This document shows positions 31,482-46,220 of a stretch of 64,000 nucleotides of DNA, in pieces. The stretch's first letter is position 1. Every line of letters starts with the position of its first letter. The DNA is taken from contig CAJNDT010000136.1 in assembly GCA_905221615.1 (NCBI GenBank), positions 953,001 through 1,017,000 of the forward strand, in the 5' to 3' direction. The stretch is from Symbiodinium sp. CCMP2592 (taxonomy: Eukaryota > Sar > Dinophyceae > Suessiales > Symbiodiniaceae). Position numbers and translations under genes: made by a program. The notes beneath the pieces were generated by a model, which saw nothing but the letters and a program-made list of their open reading frames with translations, was not told the origin of the DNA and did no database searches.

Positions 31482-31579
31482 AAATCCCTAAACCGTGCCC
31501 TCCTCGCCGCGGCACTGGCTTCGGGGAGCTCTCCGGAGACTTAGGGATAGGGCTAAGGTTGGATAGTGGATAGGGTTGA

Positions 31580-31735
31580 GGGTTCGCCAAGGGTCGGCGT
31601 TAGGTAGGTTAAGGTTCGGGGCTCGCCAAGGGCACGGCGTTAGGTAGTTTAGGGGTGAGGGCTCGCCAAAAAAAGGCGTTAGGTAGGCTAGGGGTCGCGG
31701 GTGAGGGTATTATAGGTAGGCTAGGGGTGATTGCT
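31580..31735. repeat. GGCGTTAGGTAGG minisatellite, left array
   Basis: Three to four copies, about 40 bp apart, of GGCTCGCCAA followed a few bases later by GGCGTTAGGTAGG (starts at about 31596, 31636 and 31675, with a partial near 31713). The same unit forms a second array at 39340-39513. No coding content. Confidence 0.8.
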
Positions 31736-32067
31736 CGCATCCCCCACCCCTTATAATTGTAAAACAGAGGGGGGGGGCGCATAATTGTAAACCAATATTG
31801 TTTTACAATAACGGTTTTTTTTACAATTATTGGGGTGTGGGGCATGGCTGGCTTTCTTTATCTGTGGTCCTGTAAACCAAAAAATAAATAAAGGGCCTCC
31901 CTAAATAGATAATACAGGCTAGGGGAGTGAGTGGTGGGCGCTGGGAGAATGGGAGTAGCCGTCGTCGCCGTCGTCCTCGTCGAAATAGTAGTAGTTTATA
32001 TTCGTTGTCGGGTTGTGTTTTGAGGTGGTGCTGTTACTGAGGGTTGATGTGGGGTGGGTTTTGAGGG

Positions 32068-32189
32068 ACCGGGTGCGAAAGCCCCGGTGTGTCGGGAGCG
32101 AAAGCCTCGGCACAGGGTTTCAGCTGAGCGCGAAAGCCTCAGCATGCTGGGAGCGAAAGCCCCAGCAGCCGGGTGCGAAAGCCCCGGCT
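32068..32189. repeat. array of five GCGAAAGC-capped hairpins
   Basis: Five consecutive short stem-loops lie at 32068-32088, 32089-32113, 32123-32143, 32145-32167 and 32167-32189. Each has the same architecture: a lower stem of 6-8 bp, one unpaired base on the 5' side, then GC-GAAA-GC. The lower stems differ in sequence but stay paired: ACCGGG/CCCGGT, GTGTCGGG/CTCGGCAC (two G-T pairs), GCTGAG/CTCAGC, TGCTGGG/CCCAGCA and AGCCGGG/CCCGGCT. The unpaired base is T, A, C, A and T. GCGAAAGC is known to form an exceptionally stable mini-hairpin in DNA, and GAAA is a GNRA tetraloop in RNA. A frame also runs through (Lys-Ala-rich repeats), so a coding repeat is the alternative. Function unknown. Confidence 0.8.
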
Positions 32190-32311
32190 ACTGCTACTGC
32201 TACTGCTGCTGCTACTGCTACTGCTCCTGCTGCTGCTCCTGCTCCTGCTCCTGCTGCTGCTCCTGCTCCTGCTCCTGCTCCTGCTACTGCTACTGCTACT
32301 GCTACTGCTGC
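32188..32311. repeat. CTGCTA/CTGCTC compound microsatellite
   Basis: Triplet-phased CTG with alternating CTA and CTC, giving Ala/Thr/Pro, Cys/Tyr/Ser or Leu-type low-complexity frames. It abuts the last hairpin of the array directly. Confidence 0.95.
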
Positions 32312-33007
32312 CAGGCCCGGTCGCGATCCATGCAGTGGCTTCGTGGTGACGGTGAAGGACCGACTGATTGAATGCTTTTGCAGTGGGTTTTCTCTAATCG
32401 CAGGTCGGGTTGCCGGGGGTTGTCCATTAAAGGTTTCGGGTTTGGTTTGATTCGGGGCACCCTCATGCTGCATCATGCCTTTGATTTGAAGATTCGCCGG
32501 GCACATCAGTCAAGTCTTGTGTGCCTGCATGCCAATCAAACTCTCAAGTCCGTGTCAACCCCACAGCCCCCCCCTCATGCCTTCAGGGCAATTCAAGGGT
32601 AACTTGGAGGTTCAATTCAATGTTTTAGCTTATGGGAGTTTAGTACGGATTAGGGTTCCCGTAGTAGGGTTCATAATAAGGAATCCTTACCCCCAGAATC
32701 TTAAACTCCCCTTTGGCTTCCCACCAATAACTCAAGCCCCACCTCACGACCCGACCTGCGATTGCAAACCCTACTTAAGTCGGACACACAAATCGAGAAG
32801 TGTACCAACTCCGTCGTCTCACCGCATGGTCCTCTTTCTGCGCTTTTTCTTGAATCCATGAGCGGCTGGAGCTGGAGGGATGTGAACTGGGGCGGCCGCC
32901 GCGGTGGCCGCCAGGCGAGAGGGGAGGCCAGGTGGAGCTTAAATGTCTATTGTTTCCTTGCCGTAGCCACTGGGGTGTAAACTAAGGTCTTTTCATCTCT
33001 AAGTAAT

Positions 33008-37639: not shown

Positions 37640-39072
37640 GTGTAACTTACATAGCATGCAGTATAGAGCCGATATGGTAAAAAAACATGACGGGGTAGGT
37701 GGCCTACGTACTGTGTGGGCCAGAGCCGGAGGTGGGTCCCCCCTCCTTTTTTTCCTAAATCCGGTATCCCGGCGACTGGAGCAGCGGGTAAGGCCGCATG
37801 GTACGAGTGTTTAGGGAATCCCAGTATTGCTCGGGTGTTATGCAGAGTACCCATATAGCCTGCACTACATAGAGTATGTACCGTACAGGCCAGATATTGT
37901 AAAAACAGCAGGGGGGTAGATGGCCTACGTACTGCGTGGGCCAGAGCAGGAGGTGGGTTACCCCTGCCTTTTTTCCTAATTCCAGGGGTCCTGGCGACTG
38001 GAGCAGTGGGTAAGGCCGCATGGTACGAGTGTTTAGGGAATCCCAGTATTGCTCGGGTGTTATGTAGAGTACCCATATAGTGTACACTACATAGAGTATG
38101 TACTGTACAGGCCAGATATTGTAAAAACCGTAGGGGGGTAGGTGGCCTACGTACTGCGTGGGCCAGAGCAGGAGGTGGGTTACCCCTGCCTTTTTTCCTA
38201 ATTTCAGGGGTCCTGGCCACTGGGGCACGTGGTACGACTGCTACTCTTAGTCTAGGGAATCCCAGTATTGCACGGGTGTTATGTAGAGTACCCATATAGT
38301 GTACACTACATAGAGTATGTACTGTACAGGCCAGATATTGTAAAAACCGTAGGCCTACGTACTGCGTGGGCCAGAGCAGGAGGTGGGTTACCCCTGCCTT
38401 TTTTCCTAAGTCCAGGGGTCCTGGCCACTGGGGCACGTGGTACGACTGCTACTCTTAGTCTAGGGAATCCCAGTATTGCTCGGGTGTTATGTGAGTACCC
38501 ATATAGCCTGCACTACATAGAGTATGTACCGTACAGGCCAGATATTGTAAAAACAGCAGGGGGGTAGGTGGCCTACGTACTGCGTGGGCCAGAGCAGGAG
38601 GTGGGTTACCCCTGCCTTTTTTCCTAATTCCAGGGGTCCTGGCGACTGGAGCAGTGGGTAAGGCCGCATGGTACGAGTGTTTAGGGAATCCCAGTATTGC
38701 TCGGGTGTTATGTAGAGTACCCATATAGTGTACACTACATAGAGTATGTACTGTACAGGCCAGATATTGTAAAAACCGTAGGGGGGTAGGTGGCCTACGT
38801 ACTGCGTGGGCCAGAGCAGGAGGTGGGTTACCCCTGCCTTTTTTCCTAATTCCAGGGGTCCTGGCGACTGGGGCACGTGGTACGACTGCTACTCTTAGTC
38901 TAGGGAATCCCAGTATTGCTCGGGTGTTATGTAGAGTACCCATATAGTGTACACTACATAGAGTATGTACTGTACAGGCCAGAAAATGTAAAAACCGTAG
39001 GGGGGTAGGTGGCCTACGTACTGCGTGGGCCAGAGCAGGAGGTGGGTTACCCCTGCCTTTTTTCCTAAATCG
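37640..39072. repeat. ~220-bp satellite with higher-order structure
   Basis: Six complete units plus a partial one. The anchor GGCCTACGTACTG begins at 37701, 37922, 38144, 38352, 38570, 38792 and 39011, so units are 221, 222, 208, 218, 222 and 219 bp. Two spacer types alternate (one with GGTAAGGCCGCATGG, one with GACTGCTACTCTTAGTC), and two variants of the TATAG(CC)TGCACTACATAG / TATAGTGTACACTACATAG segment. Their order makes units 1-3 and 4-6 parallel, a repeat of repeats of about 650 bp. Minus-strand frames stay open for up to 269 codons because 222 is divisible by three; I do not call these genes. The right edge is followed by CCTTTTAG and coding-like sequence, so the array may sit in an intron. 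Confidence 0.9.
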
Positions 39073-39325: not shown

Positions 39326-39339
39326 AGGCTGGGGCCGAG

Positions 39340-39513
39340 GGCTCGCCGGGAAGGCGTTAGGTAGGCTGGGGGTGGTAGGGCGAGGGCTTGCCAGCAAAGG
39401 CGTTAGGTAGGCAAAGCGGAAGGGGTGAGGGCTCGCTTGTTAAGGCGTTAGGTAGGCTAGGGGTGGCAGGGATCAGGGCTCGCCAGTAAAGGTGTTAGCT
39501 AGGTAGGGGTCTC
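39340..39513. repeat. GGCGTTAGGTAGG minisatellite, right array
   Basis: Four units of about 45 bp containing AGGGCTCGCCA and GGCGTTAGGTAGGCTAGGGG (core starts at 39352, 39399, 39443 and 39490). Same unit as the array at 31580-31735, in the same orientation, about 7.8 kb away. Confidence 0.8.
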
Positions 39514-39811: not shown

Positions 39812-39949
39812 CTGCTGGCTCCTCGCTGGTATTGTAGATGATTGTGATGCTGCCAAGCACGTGGAAAGCCTAGAGCCTGCTGCGAAGATGCTATGGTACA
39901 GGCTCCGCACTGACTTGAAGCCCTTCCCAAGTGGGGCGGCTCGGGCCTC

Positions 39950-41341
39950 TTGCCAGTGGCCGTCAAACAGGACCCCTGCACTCCCGAGCGACCTGCTGCC
40001 AGTTGGCGGATGGACAGCATCGACGGCCCCGGCCTAAGTCCTGAGCGACCGCTGGCCAAGACGAGGAGAGTGAATGGTGCGGCAGCCTTGGGCAGCTCAT
40101 CGGCGAGTTCGGCGGCAACTTCGCTGCAGGGAGGGGTGAAGAGCGAAGTCGCCTCACCGAGAATCAAGATCAAGAAGGAGCCTGCCTCGTCCGCATCACC
40201 GCCCAGGGCTACAACCTTGCCACAGCAGAAGGTCAAGGGGGAGCTTGGCTCTCCTGTTCTTGGCTCATCTGTGTCATCTGCAGCGAAGGTCTCAGGATCC
40301 GCGGCTACAACGTTGCCACAGCAAAAGGTGAAGGAAGAGCTTGGCTCTCCTATTCTTGCCTCATCTGCAGCGAAGGCCTCAAGATCCACGGCTCCCTCGG
40401 GATCTGTTGGGAAGCCAGTCAAGCAGGAACGTAGTCCGGCATCATCTTCGGCATCGCATAGCACGGCAGTCATCGAGAAGCACCTCCTGCAAGGGACAAC
40501 TCCTGAGAAATTGCAGCCCCAGCAGCCCATGAACTATGGGCAGGCGCTGCGATGTTTGATCTTCATCGCCAACCTCAACCTCGGACCAGATTGGCTTAGC
40601 AAAGTGGGAGTGCTGCTAGCTTCCGCCGAGCAATCCAAACATTGCCTGAAGCTGCAGATGGCAGCACCACACTTAGCAGCTGTGCTGCAGTCGAGGGGGC
40701 ATTGGGCTTTGTTGATGGTCCGCAAGCAGGATCCCTCCGCGGCTGCGCTGTACGACGGCAAAAACGACAGTCACTGCCGAGACATGGCAGTCGCTCTGAT
40801 GGAGCACCTTGTGGAGGCCACGTACCTCGAGAAGCAGGTGCCCGTTGAAGCAGCCAAGGTCCCACGTCAGGTGGACACGTGGTCGTGTGGCCATCGGTCC
40901 GCACTGGCCTTTGAGCGGTGCCTGGCAGACGTGTCGCTCGGCGAGCCATTGCCCCGGGTGCTAGCCTCGGGCGACCTTAACGACTTCCGAGTGAGAGGTT
41001 TGGAGGCTCTCTACAACGCCGATCAGGGAAAGTCGTCTCCGAGCCGCCACATGGGAGACCTGTCGCCTCCAAAAAGGGCTGAAGACATGGACCTCAAACT
41101 TGGCGCCGGGATTGTCTATGCGGGCACCAAGAGGAAGGTCAAGGAAGGGCCAAGTGCATCCTCAGCATCCAAGGCTGCAGCAAAGACTAAGCCTGCTGCC
41201 AAGGCCAAGACACCAAAGAAGTTGCAGCTGGAAGGCCGTGAGCTGATGCATGGCCCACGGCGAATTCCAAGCACGACATCGGCTGGAGCAGGGCAATGCA
41301 ACGCTGGCAGAGAAGGGAGGACACTGGCAGTCTTTCTGTGA
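39950..41341 (+). CDS. Ulp1/SENP-like (C48) cysteine protease segment with SUMO-site-rich tail
   Basis: A 463-codon open segment (the frame opens with TTG; the first ATG is at 40010). Residues 1-165 are disordered and contain six SUMO-acceptor-like motifs: VKQD (K6), VKSE (K64), IKKE (K75), VKGE (K96), VKEE (K128) and VKQE (K158); two lie in a 32-residue tandem repeat (LPQQKVK.ELGSP). From 'NYGQALRCLIF' (about residue 190) a globular domain follows with 'GHWALL' (His251), 'LYDGKND' (Asp269) and 'RQVDTWSCGH' (Gln307, Cys313). Order and spacing (18, 38, 6) match the His-Asp-Gln-Cys set of Ulp1-type SUMO proteases (17, 43, 6 in yeast Ulp1). Activity on SUMO is inferred. The tail after residue 360 is basic, Lys/Ala-rich. 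The next frame overlaps from 41250, implying a +1 shift. Confidence 0.65.
   Translation: MPVAVKQDPCTPERPAASWRMDSIDGPGLSPERPLAKTRRVNGAAALGSSSASSAATSLQGGVKSEVASPRIKIKKEPASSASPPRATTLPQQKVKGELGSPVLGSSVSSAAKVSGSAATTLPQQKVKEELGSPILASSAAKASRSTAPSGSVGKPVKQERSPASSSASHSTAVIEKHLLQGTTPEKLQPQQPMNYGQALRCLIFIANLNLGPDWLSKVGVLLASAEQSKHCLKLQMAAPHLAAVLQSRGHWALLMVRKQDPSAAALYDGKNDSHCRDMAVALMEHLVEATYLEKQVPVEAAKVPRQVDTWSCGHRSALAFERCLADVSLGEPLPRVLASGDLNDFRVRGLEALYNADQGKSSPSRHMGDLSPPKRAEDMDLKLGAGIVYAGTKRKVKEGPSASSASKAAAKTKPAAKAKTPKKLQLEGRELMHGPRRIPSTTSAGAGQCNAGREGRTLAVFL
40211..40402 (+). repeat. 96-bp coding tandem repeat (2 copies)
   Basis: ACAACCTTGCCACAGCAGAA and ACAACGTTGCCACAGCAAAA start two 96-bp units encoding 32-residue repeats, each with one SUMO-acceptor-like motif. 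Substitutions between the copies are largely at codon third positions, which suggests constraint on the protein. Confidence 0.75.
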
Positions 41342-42335
41342 GGCTGTCTCAGCACCAGAGAGGATGCTCGGCTGCACGGTGTGCGTCTCTCTTCGTCAGG
41401 AGCTGCGAGAAGCTCTTGCCTCCGCTGCAGAGGAATCGAGTCGGCAGTCATTGGCACCCTTGCAGCAGGTGGTGCAGCTGCCAGAGCACCAGGACCACGG
41501 GCGCATCGTCGTAGGCGACAGGGTCCATACTCCTGGCCGCCGACCCCGCAAAGAAGCTGCCGAGAGCCGCTTCGACTTGCATAGCTTCGTACAGAAGGAA
41601 CGGGGGGATGTATACCGTCTCACGGATTTCAGCTACCTGAAAGGCAAGATCACCTACCACTGCCTGGCATGCCAGAAATCAGTGAACTTTTTCGTCTCCA
41701 CCAACGACAGCAAGCTTGCGGTCCACGAGACAGGCCACAAACACATCGAGGGATTGGCCCGGCTTCAGAAGCAGAAGCAAGATGCGGAGGAGAAGGCAAT
41801 CCCGCTGCAGGAGGTGAGCGGCGGGCGGCTGCCGCAGCAGCCTCAAGCATCTGGGGCGAATGAGGCTCCGGCTCAGGTGGTGGAGGCTGTGAGCGGCGGG
41901 CGGCTGCTGCAGCAGCCTGAAGCATCTGGGGCGAATGAGGCTCCGGCTCAGGTGGTGGAGGCGGACAGATGCCCCTGTGACGGGCTGGGCCTCGAGGAGA
42001 GAAGTCCGCTCCACTCGGTGCGAGCCGGCATCACGGCCTTCTTCCAAGCTGGATGCCCCAGAACTGTCTTCCAGCGGGGCGAGACGGACCCCCTGAAAGA
42101 GGTGATCCTTGCTCAGACTGCAGATGGCATCAAGCTCAGGGCGACCCATTGCCAAGGCCGCATCGACGGGCACAATGCCCGGATGAAGGTGGCATGCGCC
42201 ATCTGCATGAAACATTGCAGCACCAAAACCGTGATGAAGCACATCTTGAAGAAGGCTTACCTGCTGGACCTGGCATCGTGGGCATGGCAGCTGTTCTATG
42301 GCAGCAGAGGCAGCAAACCGCATCAAGGAGGCTGA
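41250..42335 (+). CDS. zinc-finger segment of the protease/transposase chain
   Basis: ATG 41250 overlaps the previous frame by 92 bases, and the sequence reads on naturally across a one-base shift ('GRELMAHGEFQARH'), so it is best seen as the continuation of one protein. Residues 138-165 hold C-x2-C...H-x3-H-x-H ('YHCLACQ', 'VHETGHKH'), a C2H2/U1-like zinc finger with C138, C141, H159, H163/H165. Next comes a 25-residue tandem repeat ('SGGRL.QQP.ASGANEAPAQ', residues about 189-238). A second Cys/His cluster follows near the end ('CAICMKHC'), then 'LLDLASWAWQLF'. Zinc fingers here would fit DNA binding by a transposase. The frame ends at 42335, where the next overlaps. Confidence 0.5.
   Translation: MAHGEFQARHRLEQGNATLAEKGGHWQSFCEAVSAPERMLGCTVCVSLRQELREALASAAEESSRQSLAPLQQVVQLPEHQDHGRIVVGDRVHTPGRRPRKEAAESRFDLHSFVQKERGDVYRLTDFSYLKGKITYHCLACQKSVNFFVSTNDSKLAVHETGHKHIEGLARLQKQKQDAEEKAIPLQEVSGGRLPQQPQASGANEAPAQVVEAVSGGRLLQQPEASGANEAPAQVVEADRCPCDGLGLEERSPLHSVRAGITAFFQAGCPRTVFQRGETDPLKEVILAQTADGIKLRATHCQGRIDGHNARMKVACAICMKHCSTKTVMKHILKKAYLLDLASWAWQLFYGSRGSKPHQGG
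41814..41963 (+). repeat. 75-bp coding tandem repeat (2 copies)
   Basis: GTGAGCGGCGGGCGGCTG starts at 41814 and 41889. The two 75-bp units differ at only a few positions. In frame with the surrounding coding segment. Confidence 0.9.
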
Positions 42336-43032
42336 CTATCGCAGGCAGGGCCATGCGGGCCTGGACTTCGAGGAGCTGTGCGGCCTATCCTGCAAACTGC
42401 AGATTGCACGAAGTGTCTGGAACAAGTTCGAGAACATCCCGAAGATCCGCCGCTCGACCGAGCTGCAGGACTTCATCGACCGCTATGTGGTGAAGCCCCA
42501 GCTGTTCCACTCGGGAGACAACGAAGCTCGTGCACACTCCTCACTCGTAGCTGCCTTCGCCAATCAGGTGGGAGCCGGGAACGTCCAGTCCACAGACTTG
42601 GTCCTCGCTGCCAAGGTTGCAGCGGGTGAGCTGCGGCAGGACTCCCTCATCTCAGGGTTGGTCACGACCTTCCTCATGCAGTATCGGCGGAGCCTTGGGT
42701 GCAAGAGGAAGACGAGCTCAGCTTTTTCCGACCCAGAGGCGCTGGCGGAGGTTTTGGGGATGTTGGGTGTTCGGAGCGAAGCGGAGGCTCTCGTACAGCG
42801 GTTCCATGTGAACCCTCAGTCGCTGCCGCGGTTGGTTCTGCACTCCGCCACCCTGCCGAATGCCTTCTGCAGTCTCCGAAGCCAGGCTGATGTGGACATG
42901 GCAGCTCAGACAGCGATCAGCCTGCTTCGCCTTCATAGGGAGGACGGGGCCATTTGCTGGTGGGTGAAACAGTGTGGGCACCCTGCTACGAACAAGTCTC
43001 AGGTCTGCGAGCGGAGAAACCGGGTGAGATGA
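42298..43032 (+). CDS. central helical segment of the protease/transposase chain
   Basis: ATG 42298 overlaps the previous frame by 38 bases, again with protein-like sequence on both sides of a one-base shift. The segment is mainly helical ('FEELCGLSCKLQIARSVWNK', 'STELQDFIDRYVVKPQLF', 'AEALVQRFHVNPQSLPRLVL', 'SQADVDMAAQTAISLLRLHR') and ends with 'EDGAIC' before the next shift at about 42957. It would lie just before the first acidic residue of a transposase core, where DDE transposases commonly have a helical linker. Nothing in it is diagnostic alone. The last ~25 codons of this frame lie past the shift and probably do not belong to the protein. Confidence 0.45.
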   Translation: MAAEAANRIKEADYRRQGHAGLDFEELCGLSCKLQIARSVWNKFENIPKIRRSTELQDFIDRYVVKPQLFHSGDNEARAHSSLVAAFANQVGAGNVQSTDLVLAAKVAAGELRQDSLISGLVTTFLMQYRRSLGCKRKTSSAFSDPEALAEVLGMLGVRSEAEALVQRFHVNPQSLPRLVLHSATLPNAFCSLRSQADVDMAAQTAISLLRLHREDGAICWWVKQCGHPATNKSQVCERRNRVR

Positions 43033-43715
43033 AGGAGATCGGGATTGTAGGGGGCGAGTTCAGCGATGATCCCGCCGAGGACTTCTCATGCATCAAGGCG
43101 AGCGACCGCCAGATCTCGGACCTGCCGCCCGAAAGGCTGGCACGGCTGACTCTCCACCTCGCCCTTCACAGGGCGGACAACTCTGCCCACGTCTTCGACT
43201 TAGCAGTGCTACCAAGACCCCAAGGACAAGCTGACTCGCAGACGCTCCTCCGCTTCGTCGCCAGTGCTCTTGACAGCTGTGCCCGAGTCAACAACGGAGT
43301 GCCGGTCATCGGCGCCAGCCACGACGGTGCCAGTGTGAACGGCATGCTGAACAGATGCCAGTCAGGGTTGGAGTCCGAGGATGTGCTGCGGAACTTCCCC
43401 TTCTTCCGCGACTGTGTCGTGGAGCCGATGGCCCCTCAGCTGCCTTGCTTTCCATACAAGCAGCTCCGCTACAAGCAGCAACATCTGCTAGTAGGCTGCA
43501 CCGATGGCTGGCACTGCCAGAAGAGATACGGCCTCCAGCACAGCAGTGGGGCTCGCTACATCACCTACGGCCGCATGACAGTGTGCCTGACGCCAGAAGT
43601 CCGTGCAAACATCGGGCACCAGATCCACTGCCTCTTCGACACGATGAGCGACAAGCACGCCGCAGCTCGCATGTCACATGTGTTCATGCCGCTCTCCTTC
43701 GAAGCTCGGCCGTAG
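42954..43715 (+). CDS. transposase-core-like segment
   Basis: The frame opens with TTG at 42954 and overlaps the previous by 79 bases. It contains 'VFDLAVLPRPQGQADSQTLL', typical of a strand-helix pair in RNase H-fold transposases, then 'VIGASHDGASVN' (Asp124) and 'TDGWHCQK' (Asp184, His187, Lys190). The latter has the D-x2-H-x2-K spacing seen in P-element-type transposases (DPPHLLK). By position these could be catalytic or core residues, but assignment by eye is uncertain and KDZ-type transposases are an alternative. The frame stops at TAG 43713-43715; homologous-looking sequence resumes at about 43788, so an intron or further decay lies between. Confidence 0.45.
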   Translation: MLVGETVWAPCYEQVSGLRAEKPGEMKEIGIVGGEFSDDPAEDFSCIKASDRQISDLPPERLARLTLHLALHRADNSAHVFDLAVLPRPQGQADSQTLLRFVASALDSCARVNNGVPVIGASHDGASVNGMLNRCQSGLESEDVLRNFPFFRDCVVEPMAPQLPCFPYKQLRYKQQHLLVGCTDGWHCQKRYGLQHSSGARYITYGRMTVCLTPEVRANIGHQIHCLFDTMSDKHAAARMSHVFMPLSFEARP

Positions 43716-43787
43716 CCACCAGGTTTTCCATATGGGTCTGTCTTTTTTTTGGGGGGTTGAATACTGCTACTGCCCTACACAGCTTAG
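43716..43787 (+). other. intron-like gap within the chain
   Basis: It contains CACCAGGTTTTCC (a good AG|GT donor at 43722/43723), T8 and G6 runs, and CCCTACACAG and CTTAG as acceptor candidates. Removing 43723-43787 joins exons but leaves the TAG at 43713, so no single splice by eye gives a clean frame. It may be an intron plus a small mutation. Confidence 0.3.
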
Positions 43788-43814
43788 GATGCACTCGGGG
43801 CACACGCGCACGGC

Positions 43815-44717
43815 GTGTATGGTGCATTGCTCGCCAGCTTCACTACGGCGAGTCATGCCTTCAGCAAGCATGAACACGCCGTCAACGCTTTTTCCCTCTA
43901 CTACGGCTTGCTCCTTCATATGATGACCAACCGGGCTCGCTTCGGCGACGAGGCCGGCCTGTACAGCATCTCGACCATCACACTGCGAAACCTTTGCTCG
44001 TTGTGTGCCCACGGCATACAATCCACCAGGATTCCGGGACTGGAGCCGAGACTGGTACAGGAGCTGCCCATTGAACATCATTTTGGGCGACTCAAGAGCC
44101 ACTTCCAAGGGCAAGGCTCGATTCGAGATGCTGTGCATGCCCTGAGCCTGGAAGCTGGAAAGCAGGCCCGCTGCTTGGAGCATGTGGCTGACCCTTCAGA
44201 GCTCGATGCCCGGACCAGTGCCGAGTCCAGGGAAGCCCTGGGTGCAGATGAGATCCTGGAGTGTGCCAAGGAGGGCTTGGCAGCTGCTTTGCAGTTCCAG
44301 GCTTTCTTGATGCCGGACGACAGGCCCGAGGATCTGTATGAGCACCTGCGGAAATGGTACCCCGCGATTGGTCACAAGCTGCTTACGCAGCGAGAACTCC
44401 CAGAGGAGGAGATGGAGGACTTCCTGGGCCTCTCCGCCCAGGAGCTGACATTGGACGAGATGAAGGAGCTCACGGCCGGGAAGGAGGGACCCGAGAATCC
44501 GCAGAAGCAGGCATCGGGTCCAGAGGACAAGCAGCTTCTGCAGTCCATAGAGGATCGAGCTTTGCTGCGAGCAAAGCTGCGAGGAGAAATCGAGGCCACG
44601 GCGACAGACGACCTCGACGATTCCGTGTGCGAGGATGGAGGCTTTGTCCAGCCGGATCCCGATGACACCGAGGGAGTGATGCCTCTGCCTGAGGAGTCTT
44701 TTGGGGTTCAGGGATAG
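43815..44717 (+). CDS. C-terminal transposase-like segment with Glu motif
   Basis: The frame is open from about 43788 ('DALGAHAHGVYGALLASF'); the first start codon is GTG 43815. 'TTASHAFSKHEHAVNAFSL' and 'ISTITLRNLCSLCAHGIQ' are helical. 'LPIEHHFGRLKSHF' (Glu87) is the kind of Glu-containing helix that completes a DDE triad in many eukaryotic transposases. The rest is acidic and helical ('LPEEEMEDFLGLSAQELTLD', 'DDLDDSVCEDGG'), ending 'EESFGVQG' before TAG. A heptamer-like insertion (44731-44792) follows. Likely the continuation of the same protein. Confidence 0.45.
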   Translation: MYGALLASFTTASHAFSKHEHAVNAFSLYYGLLLHMMTNRARFGDEAGLYSISTITLRNLCSLCAHGIQSTRIPGLEPRLVQELPIEHHFGRLKSHFQGQGSIRDAVHALSLEAGKQARCLEHVADPSELDARTSAESREALGADEILECAKEGLAAALQFQAFLMPDDRPEDLYEHLRKWYPAIGHKLLTQRELPEEEMEDFLGLSAQELTLDEMKELTAGKEGPENPQKQASGPEDKQLLQSIEDRALLRAKLRGEIEATATDDLDDSVCEDGGFVQPDPDDTEGVMPLPEESFGVQG

Positions 44718-44730
44718 GGGTTTCTGGTGG

Positions 44731-44792
44731 AGGGTTGAGGGTTAAGGTTTTAAGGGTTTAAGGGTTTAAGGGTCAAGGGTTCCGGGTTTAGA
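44731..44792 (+). repeat. telomere-like heptamer run between coding segments
   Basis: GGGTTTAAGGGTTTAAGGG and related TTTAAGGG octamers. It sits between two coding-like segments and is followed by CCTAG|CTGCCAGG, which resembles a 3' splice site, so it may be in an intron. Confidence 0.7.
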
Positions 44793-45664
44793 GTCCTAGC
44801 TGCCAGGAGCCATCTCTCGAGGAGGGCCAGAAGCAGCCCAAGACCTTGAGAGATGTCATGCGGATTGCAGTGTCGCAGAAGCTGTCTTGCTTCGACATGG
44901 GCGAGCCGAGTGCGACAGGCGAGCTGGCGATCGTCCGACGAGTTTCGGCTATGCTGCCAGGCATGCGAAGCTTCATGAGCTACACTCGAGGGGCTGAGGG
45001 GCTGCTCTCCTGGGCATGGCTGGACACGCAGAGTCAGGCCAAGGACAATGCTTGGAATGTCGGCCAGCATCAGCTTGCGAAAGCTCGTTTGGCCCAGGGC
45101 TTGTGCAAGATGCGAATGGCACGAAGCACTGCATGGCAGCAGAGTCAGGCCAAAGCCATCCGCGATGTCACCAAGAAGGTGGCCGAAAGTGGCATTGCCA
45201 AAGCTGGCCAAGGCGTCATCGAGCCAGCGAGCTTCAGCCCTTTATTCCAGGAGGATGGCACTTACCAGATTCTCGCGATCAAGGGCAAGGCATGCTATGC
45301 TTCTGCACCGAGGGTCGTCCTGGGCTGTGTTCAAGCCGTGTTTCGCGGCAGTGTCGTGAGACGTGGCACCGCGACCTACAAGTGCGGAGGGCCTTGCAGC
45401 ATCGCACTGCCATCGTCCTCCACTCGGGTCTTGCATTGCACGGAGTTCTCAGAGAAGGAGGGCGGCTGGTTCGAGACGTCTTGTGCCTCTCAGCCATTGG
45501 TGATCGAGGCGGAAGATGTGCTGGGGGAGCTCGCAATTTCGAGGCAGGCGATCAGTGCAAGCAGGCTACGCATCCTTTTGACCCCGGCATCCCTGGCAGC
45601 ATTGCAGTACATGAGGACTTCGGCTTTCAAGCTTCCCAAGGTATCCGAGAGCAAGGCATCCTGA
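44792..45664 (+). CDS. coding-like C-terminal segment, unknown
   Basis: Open from 44792 to 45664 (first start-like codon TTG 44846, first ATG 44858). It reads as a well-composed protein: 'MRIAVSQKLSCFDMGEPSA', 'GELAIVRRVSAMLPGMRSFM', helical Gln/Ala/Lys-rich middle ('QAKDNAWNVGQHQLAKARLA'), then beta-like segments ('TYQILAIKGKACYASAPRVV', 'TATYKCGGPCSIALPSSSTR'), ending 'KLPKVSESKAS'. I do not recognise the family. It may be the last part of the transposon protein or an independent gene captured beside it. It is on the same strand with the same base usage as the segments before it. The other plus-strand frame at 45016-45885 is judged a shadow. Confidence 0.45.
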   Translation, partial: SPSCQEPSLEEGQKQPKTLRDVMRIAVSQKLSCFDMGEPSATGELAIVRRVSAMLPGMRSFMSYTRGAEGLLSWAWLDTQSQAKDNAWNVGQHQLAKARLAQGLCKMRMARSTAWQQSQAKAIRDVTKKVAESGIAKAGQGVIEPASFSPLFQEDGTYQILAIKGKACYASAPRVVLGCVQAVFRGSVVRRGTATYKCGGPCSIALPSSSTRVLHCTEFSEKEGGWFETSCASQPLVIEAEDVLGELAISRQAISASRLRILLTPASLAALQYMRTSAFKLPKVSESKAS

Positions 45665-46220
45665 AGTACCCTGTGAAAAAAACCACGGGTGACGATTCAG
45701 AGCTTTCGTGGTCGTTCATGGAGCGGAATCGTCGCTGGGGTTCAGTGGCTTTTCGTGATTGGAGCAAAGCTCCGATCGGGGATTTGGGGCGACGCGACAC
45801 CGGGTGCCAACACTGCTTGAAGACGGCCAAGTTTCCAGCCACATATGTTGACCTGTCCTGGTGTCGCTTGTGCCCTCCTGGCTAGAGTTGCGAATCACGC
45901 ACTCGGACGAGGGGCACAAAAAAGTCGCATATGCAGTGCTTGCAGTGCTCTGTTTCCTGCTCTTGATTTGCTCATGCCGGCATGTTCCATGCCCCGAGGT
46001 TTCATCCGGAAGGGTATGGCTTGACCACGGTGGCGGGGTGCTCATTACTCTTGCTGCTCTTGACTTTTTCCTGTCGGCAAGTCACTTTCCGTGCCCCGAG
46101 GTTTCATGGATGTGACTTTACCATGGTGCTAGCCCCGGAGTGACACGTCTCTTGCACCAAGAAGCTGATGTCTGGTTCTGTCGAGGTTGGGGTCTACTCG
46201 ACTCGGACATGCACATCCCA
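45665..46220. other. unrecognised stretch with ~100-bp imperfect duplication
   Basis: TTCCATGCCCCGAGGTTTCAT at about 45985 and TTCCGTGCCCCGAGGTTTCAT at about 46088 mark two copies of an imperfect repeat that also shares CTGCTCTTGA upstream. No gene supported. Confidence 0.5.

Follow-up and report, generated by a model that had tools for sequence, protein, structure and literature searches.

The question raised by positions 32068..32189 of the window (the whole 64-kb stretch of DNA analysed, C136:953001-1017000) is what maintains a row of hairpins with a common top and differing stems in a dinoflagellate genome. The initial annotation had claimed five tandem hairpins there, and all five were located, on the + strand, with one layout throughout: a lower stem, one unpaired base on the 5' side, the cap GC-GAAA-GC, and the returning arm of the stem. 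Hairpin 1 (32068..32088) pairs ACCGGG with CCCGGT, hairpin 2 (32089..32113) pairs GTGTCGGG with CTCGGCAC, hairpin 3 (32123..32143) pairs GCTGAG with CTCAGC, hairpin 4 (32145..32167) pairs TGCTGGG with CCCAGCA, and hairpin 5 (32167..32189) pairs AGCCGGG with CCCGGCT, the unpaired base being, in order, T, A, C, A and T. The stems differ and pair as they had been drawn, with the qualification that the stem of hairpin 2 includes two G-U pairs. Base 32167 is common to hairpins 4 and 5, so that the seventh pair is possible in only one of them at a time.

Folding with RNA and with DNA parameters, which had been proposed as a check, placed the array far below its shuffles in both cases. The RNA fold forms all five hairpins at -76.9 kcal/mol (z -5.5; equalled by 0 of 200 shuffles), and the DNA-parameter fold of the same strand forms four (z -4.1; 0 of 200 shuffles), hairpin 2 being missing from the minimum-energy fold. 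Units of this topology (at least six lower pairs, one bulge, two base pairs and a GNRA loop) were counted on both strands of the window; there are eight, of which the array supplies five, against a mean of 1.85 in 20 dinucleotide shuffles of the window, which never placed two on one strand less than 130 nt apart. The window array of five hairpins is beyond chance.

The genome (1.098 Gb in 5,383 contigs) was examined for further copies by a DNA similarity search that passes over common words and scores no more than its best candidates, so that diverged arrays may be missed. With window positions 32030-32189 as query, the matches were the window itself and contigs C4982, C335 and C4734. Contig C4734 contains a second array of five units, approximately 70% identical to the window array, with loops GCAA, GTAA, GGAA, GAAA and GAAA and bulges T, T, A, T and T in order; as a query, it matched itself and the window only. 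The C4982 copy is a deleted remnant that retains the head (from 32038) and hairpin 3, the latter with cap GT-GAAA-GC and bulge T, lacks 32068-32103 and hairpins 4 and 5, and runs into CTC/CTG repeats; the C335 copy is nearly identical to it (99.6% over 3 kb). The many further copies by which the initial annotation would have judged its proposal thus came down to one other array and one remnant with its duplicate, in a search that may miss diverged arrays.

Pattern searches gave a similar picture. A strict unit pattern occurs at 12 places in the whole genome, versus 13 in a reversed control, and seven of the 12 are within the two arrays. The five places outside the arrays show no excess over the reversed control, and a genome-wide hairpin family was rejected; the place on C3334, with no second unit in its 3-kb locus, reaches 28.3 bits (29.9 for the lowest-scoring array unit), three others score 19-20 bits and one 11.5, and all five were taken as chance. 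A relaxed pattern of units 3 and 4 was found at 19 places, versus seven in the control, with four exact places (two in the window, one each in C335 and C4982) and 15 with one mismatch. A tandem cap pattern was found at seven places (four in the window, one in C4734, two of other shape), versus none in the control. Two looser cap patterns gave 1,010 places versus 796 in the control and 228 versus 49, which among the places listed are, by eye, simple repeats and likely Ala-Lys repeats, except for the window array. The sequence that we take to be the dinoflagellate spliced leader is present in the assembly as 429 exact copies (none in the reversed control), which identifies the genome as that of a dinoflagellate, and no spliced-leader relic matched within 5 kb of the array at the thresholds used.

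Beyond this genome, a prokaryote collection yielded 10 loci, each with two unit-like words by construction, which are GC-rich, mostly have other folds and were taken as chance; one of them (L101), the only one with genes listed, is a longer GC-rich tandem repeat. A viral collection yielded 13 loci for one pattern, none of which is by eye an array of this form, and none for a stricter pattern. Four viral contigs (L004, L005, L009 and L011) contain adjacent GC-rich inverted repeats capped by GCGAAAGC, in which the bulge is absent by eye and which are possibly terminators. As far as it was searched for, the hairpin array is rare in its genome.

The available units were compared in an alignment of 11 units (five from the window, five from C4734 and one from C4982) by 21 positions, with eight pairs per unit and hence 88 pair cells. 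Of these cells, 87 (98.9%) still pair, and both sides have changed in seven, across three of the eight pairs; none of 500 shuffles reached either value or the covariation score of the alignment. Two of the five measures were unremarkable, the number of pairs with a double change being reached by 48 of 500 shuffles and the number of further pair types by 44. When neutral change was modelled along the minimum spanning tree that joins the 10 array units, a null that requires no matching of units between arrays, a mean of 64.5 paired cells out of 80 was expected, versus 79 found (P ~4e-5); six of the changes on this tree yield a wobble and none yields A-C. Under the same null, the finding that all loops are GNRA has P 0.07, which is weak alone.

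When the units of the two arrays were matched by position, 12 pairs differed, of which 11 still pair, five through a double change; the corresponding null breaks a mean of 5.5 (P 0.0004; P 0.005 for the double changes), with unit correspondence assumed. Position matching, with 81 identical letters, does not maximise identity, 48 of the 120 possible assignments being higher (up to 85), so that the value of 0.0004 depends on the assumed correspondence; there are four to seven compensated double changes between the arrays under all 120 assignments. The single failure is one outer pair broken in the C4734 array. The bulge is one 5' base, two base pairs from the loop, in all 11 units (T in seven, A in three, C in one, never G), and all 11 loops fit GNRA, the three loop changes all being at its N. 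The shared GC-GAAA-GC cap holds for every window unit, and GAAA itself is not fixed, being replaced by GCAA, GTAA or GGAA in some units of C4734. The view of the initial annotation that structure rather than sequence is kept is strengthened by the C4734 array, which holds the fold with paired changes: a diverged second set of five keeps the same shape, and the shape therefore seems to be preserved.

The shape also has a strand polarity. The non-Watson-Crick cells among the 88 are 10 G-U and one G-G, with no A-C, and when the reverse strand is folded, six of the 10 array units lose or change the shape and are 3-9 kcal/mol weaker, the other four retaining it. The presence of G-U without A-C and the weakened reverse-strand shape point to a + sense RNA, so that the choice between RNA and DNA, at first left undecided, falls in favour of RNA. 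One rule for stable loops in DNA is C(GNNA)G, and GNAA loops are stable in DNA too; since the array loops also fit this rule, the loop alone cannot separate RNA from DNA.

The reading that we prefer, tentatively, takes the array to encode, on the + strand, a structured RNA module which would present several copies of one binding shape in a transcript. The recognition surface of each unit would be the GNRA tetraloop, the two base pairs beneath it and the unpaired 5' base just below, and the lower stem would merely support this surface, so that its letters could drift while pairing is retained. The putative transcript may be an untranslated region or a non-coding RNA, on which five surfaces in a row could accommodate a single RNA-binding protein in several copies, with the outcome that the transcript is regulated or the protein is soaked up. 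The top is constant and the lower stem variable, as a protein or RNA reading the top would leave them, and from this we infer a multivalent array; counted against it are the existence of two arrays only and a + strand frame that is open across each.

The stems could also have been maintained by mutation rather than selection, if imperfect palindromes are repaired by template switching when DNA is replicated and a single hairpin was multiplied by tandem duplication. According to PMC8794818, stems can arise through template switching, which is also proposed to fix them by compensatory changes while the loop is kept; a tandem array with a common cap fits duplication. Copying repair should, however, yield Watson-Crick arms, yet G-U accounts for 10 of the 88 cells, and both G-U and A-C would be expected from a process blind to strand, yet there is no A-C; moreover, the bulge is retained in 11 of 11 units, and the authors of PMC8794818 themselves describe as circumstantial the evidence that short stems are maintained in this way. 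Template switching accounts for the compensatory changes and not for the kept bulge and wobbles, and as what keeps the stems we consider it rather unlikely.

The surroundings of the array bear on a second alternative, in which the module is mobile. Window positions 31739-32310 are a mosaic of dispersed repeats. A MITE-like imperfect palindrome of about 104 bp (31739-31842) has full copies on C5313 (98%) and C5103 (92%) and partial copies elsewhere, a piece at 31839-32010 recurs on C5129, C113 and C69 (82-83%) and partly on C1724 and C339, and a 41-nt piece at 31998-32038 is 98% identical to C5119 and C5229. The homology of the 41-nt piece stops at 32038, where the homology to C4982 starts. At C5119 and C5229, which are 99.7% alike over 375 bases, this piece precedes TTGGTCC repeats and what seems to be the 3' end of 18S rRNA with ITS1. 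The array itself is preceded by a 28-nt head, GAGGGTTGATGTGGGGTGGGTTTTGAGG (32039..32066, + strand), which with up to three mismatches occurs at three places only (the window, C4982 and C335; none in the reversed control) and of which the left limit coincides with the end of the other repeat at 32038. Directly after hairpin 5 there is a CTG/CTA/CTC microsatellite (32187..32309, + strand); a similar tract follows the C4982 remnant and not the C4734 array, and CTG microsatellites are very common in this genome.

A paralogous locus on C1369 matches both sides of the mosaic (31.57-31.74 kb, and pieces from 32311 on, with 90% identity over 1.5 kb from 32621) and lacks the mosaic that holds the array; thus the module, or the block holding it, was gained or lost there. 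With the segment missing from this paralogue and the C4982 copy broken, there are loci at which the module is not essential. A perfect 15-nt inverted repeat is present at 32396-32410 and 32749-32763, 338 nt apart, and between its arms the parts 32380-32505 and 32534-32572 are inverted in the C1369 paralogue. A dispersed repeat of about 105 bp (32622-32726) occurs at more than 30 places with 86-91% identity among the matches listed. Tandem repeats at 31571-31695 and 39336-39510 have, by eye, a constant CGCC/GGCG stem and a varying loop, the reverse of the hairpin array. Farther along the window are a 222-bp tandem repeat (37692-39068; 6.3 copies, 90% matches) and a run of long overlapping + strand open frames (39914-45885), six of which had no Pfam match at E 0.01. 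Among the neighbouring genes, no Pfam family scored above its cut-off in the 10 frames tested, and no tRNA was found in the window.

Outside the arrays, the window and C4734 have in common only a 25-base telomere-like repeat match (10 kb of C4734 compared), and the upstream similarity of the two arrays is not above that of shuffles (48 of 300 as good). Apart from weak matches in low-complexity sequence or in the arrays themselves, no protein is common to the window and the surrounding 10 kb of either other locus. The word ACTCGTCCGTTAGGACGGG occurs twice near the C4734 array, at about 4850 and 6370 of the retrieved locus.

The module might accordingly be the 3' end of a rare retroposon, in which the head would be followed by hairpins that a LINE reverse transcriptase recognises and then by a microsatellite tail, comparable to eel UnaL2/UnaSINE1. 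The head, beginning at approximately 32038/32039, is common to the window and C4982/C335, both of which enter CTG-type repeats and share no further non-repeat flank over the 10 kb compared, and the upstream piece of the window departs from its C5119 and C5229 relatives at the very point where the head starts. UnaL2 requires a bulged stem-loop and a short-repeat tail, according to PMC5135761, and this succession, a trait of LINE/SINE 3' tails of the stringent type, is found in two of the three locus types here, the window and C4982, and not in C4734. Against a retroposon, there are only these three locus types (C335 being counted with C4982) instead of many dispersed copies, although diverged ones could be missed; the C4734 array has neither head nor tail; CTG microsatellites are commonplace here; and word matching around the window copy revealed no convincing target-site duplication, its boundaries being in repeats. 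The bulge is also two base pairs from the loop in all 11 units, versus four to six in the LINE hairpins described in PMC5135761, where UnaL2/UnaSINE1 has a single hairpin with a GGAUA loop and its bulge further down. Recognition by reverse transcriptase, putative for the module, is established for UnaL2/UnaSINE1 according to the same source. A retroposon accounts for the head, the tail and the copying, and not for the C4734 array or the low copy number, and is rather unlikely.

Action as single-stranded DNA, in which the array would serve replication or transposition through the highly stable mini-hairpin GCGAAAGC (which we take to be the letters of the mini-hairpin DNA already described), is very improbable: four of the five hairpins are present in the DNA fold, but hairpin 2 is absent from it, G-T pairs are less favourable in DNA, and the copies are too few for a transposon end. 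Mini-hairpin DNA that adds strong stability is nonetheless known, as described in PMC4686876. Finally, a protein repeat, with GCGAAAGC readable as Ala-Lys-Ala, is extremely unlikely, for although an open + frame spans the window array (31995-32450) and another covers the 180 bases around the C4734 array, and although many tandem GCGAAAGC pairs among the genome matches listed resemble Ala-Lys repeats by eye, the unit spacings (23, 32, 23 and 22 in the window; 29, 31, 26 and 25 in C4734) are in none of eight cases a multiple of three, so that the reading frame shifts between neighbouring units, the peptides are unlike between units and between arrays, and the Pfam match is weak and to a low-complexity part (17.5 bits versus a cut-off of 27).

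The preferred reading, a multivalent RNA-binding module, would be of interest in this lineage, as few cis-acting RNA signals have, to our knowledge, been described in dinoflagellate nuclear genes. Dinoflagellates rely mainly on post-transcriptional and translational control, according to PMC12787238. The broader proposal of a new class of eukaryotic multivalent RNA elements, in which arrays of five surfaces with covariation at two loci would serve a putative dinoflagellate RNA-binding protein as a module copyable to new places, is doubtful. A covarying array with a fixed recognition surface would serve as bait for such a protein, and would provide a clean test case for selection versus template-switch repair behind compensatory changes.

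The window and loci L077 (C4734) and L078 contain no match to Rfam 15 at curated thresholds; relaxed searches gave six matches below threshold in the vicinity of the window array, and the C4734 array had none nearby. No description of such an element in dinoflagellates was found among the titles and abstract openings of the open-licence literature. Mitochondrial double-hairpin elements resemble the array, by description, in being short GC-rich hairpins with variable stems, and are set apart, again by description, in that the array is on a nuclear contig and in fives. In the coat-protein operator of MS2-type leviviruses, a single 5' base is left unpaired two pairs beneath a tetraloop, and this base has to be A and the loop ANYA; all 11 units have this geometry, but their identities differ, the bulge being A in three of 11 and the loops GAAA, GCAA, GTAA and GGAA. 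The CsrB/RsmZ sponges, each of which takes up multiple copies of a single RNA-binding protein, the Xist A-repeats and roX are tandem-hairpin regulatory RNAs, and like them the array has hairpins in a row with a common loop or box and variable stems; they differ in having GGA or AUCG loops or a paired box where each unit of the array has a GNRA loop with a bulge two base pairs below.
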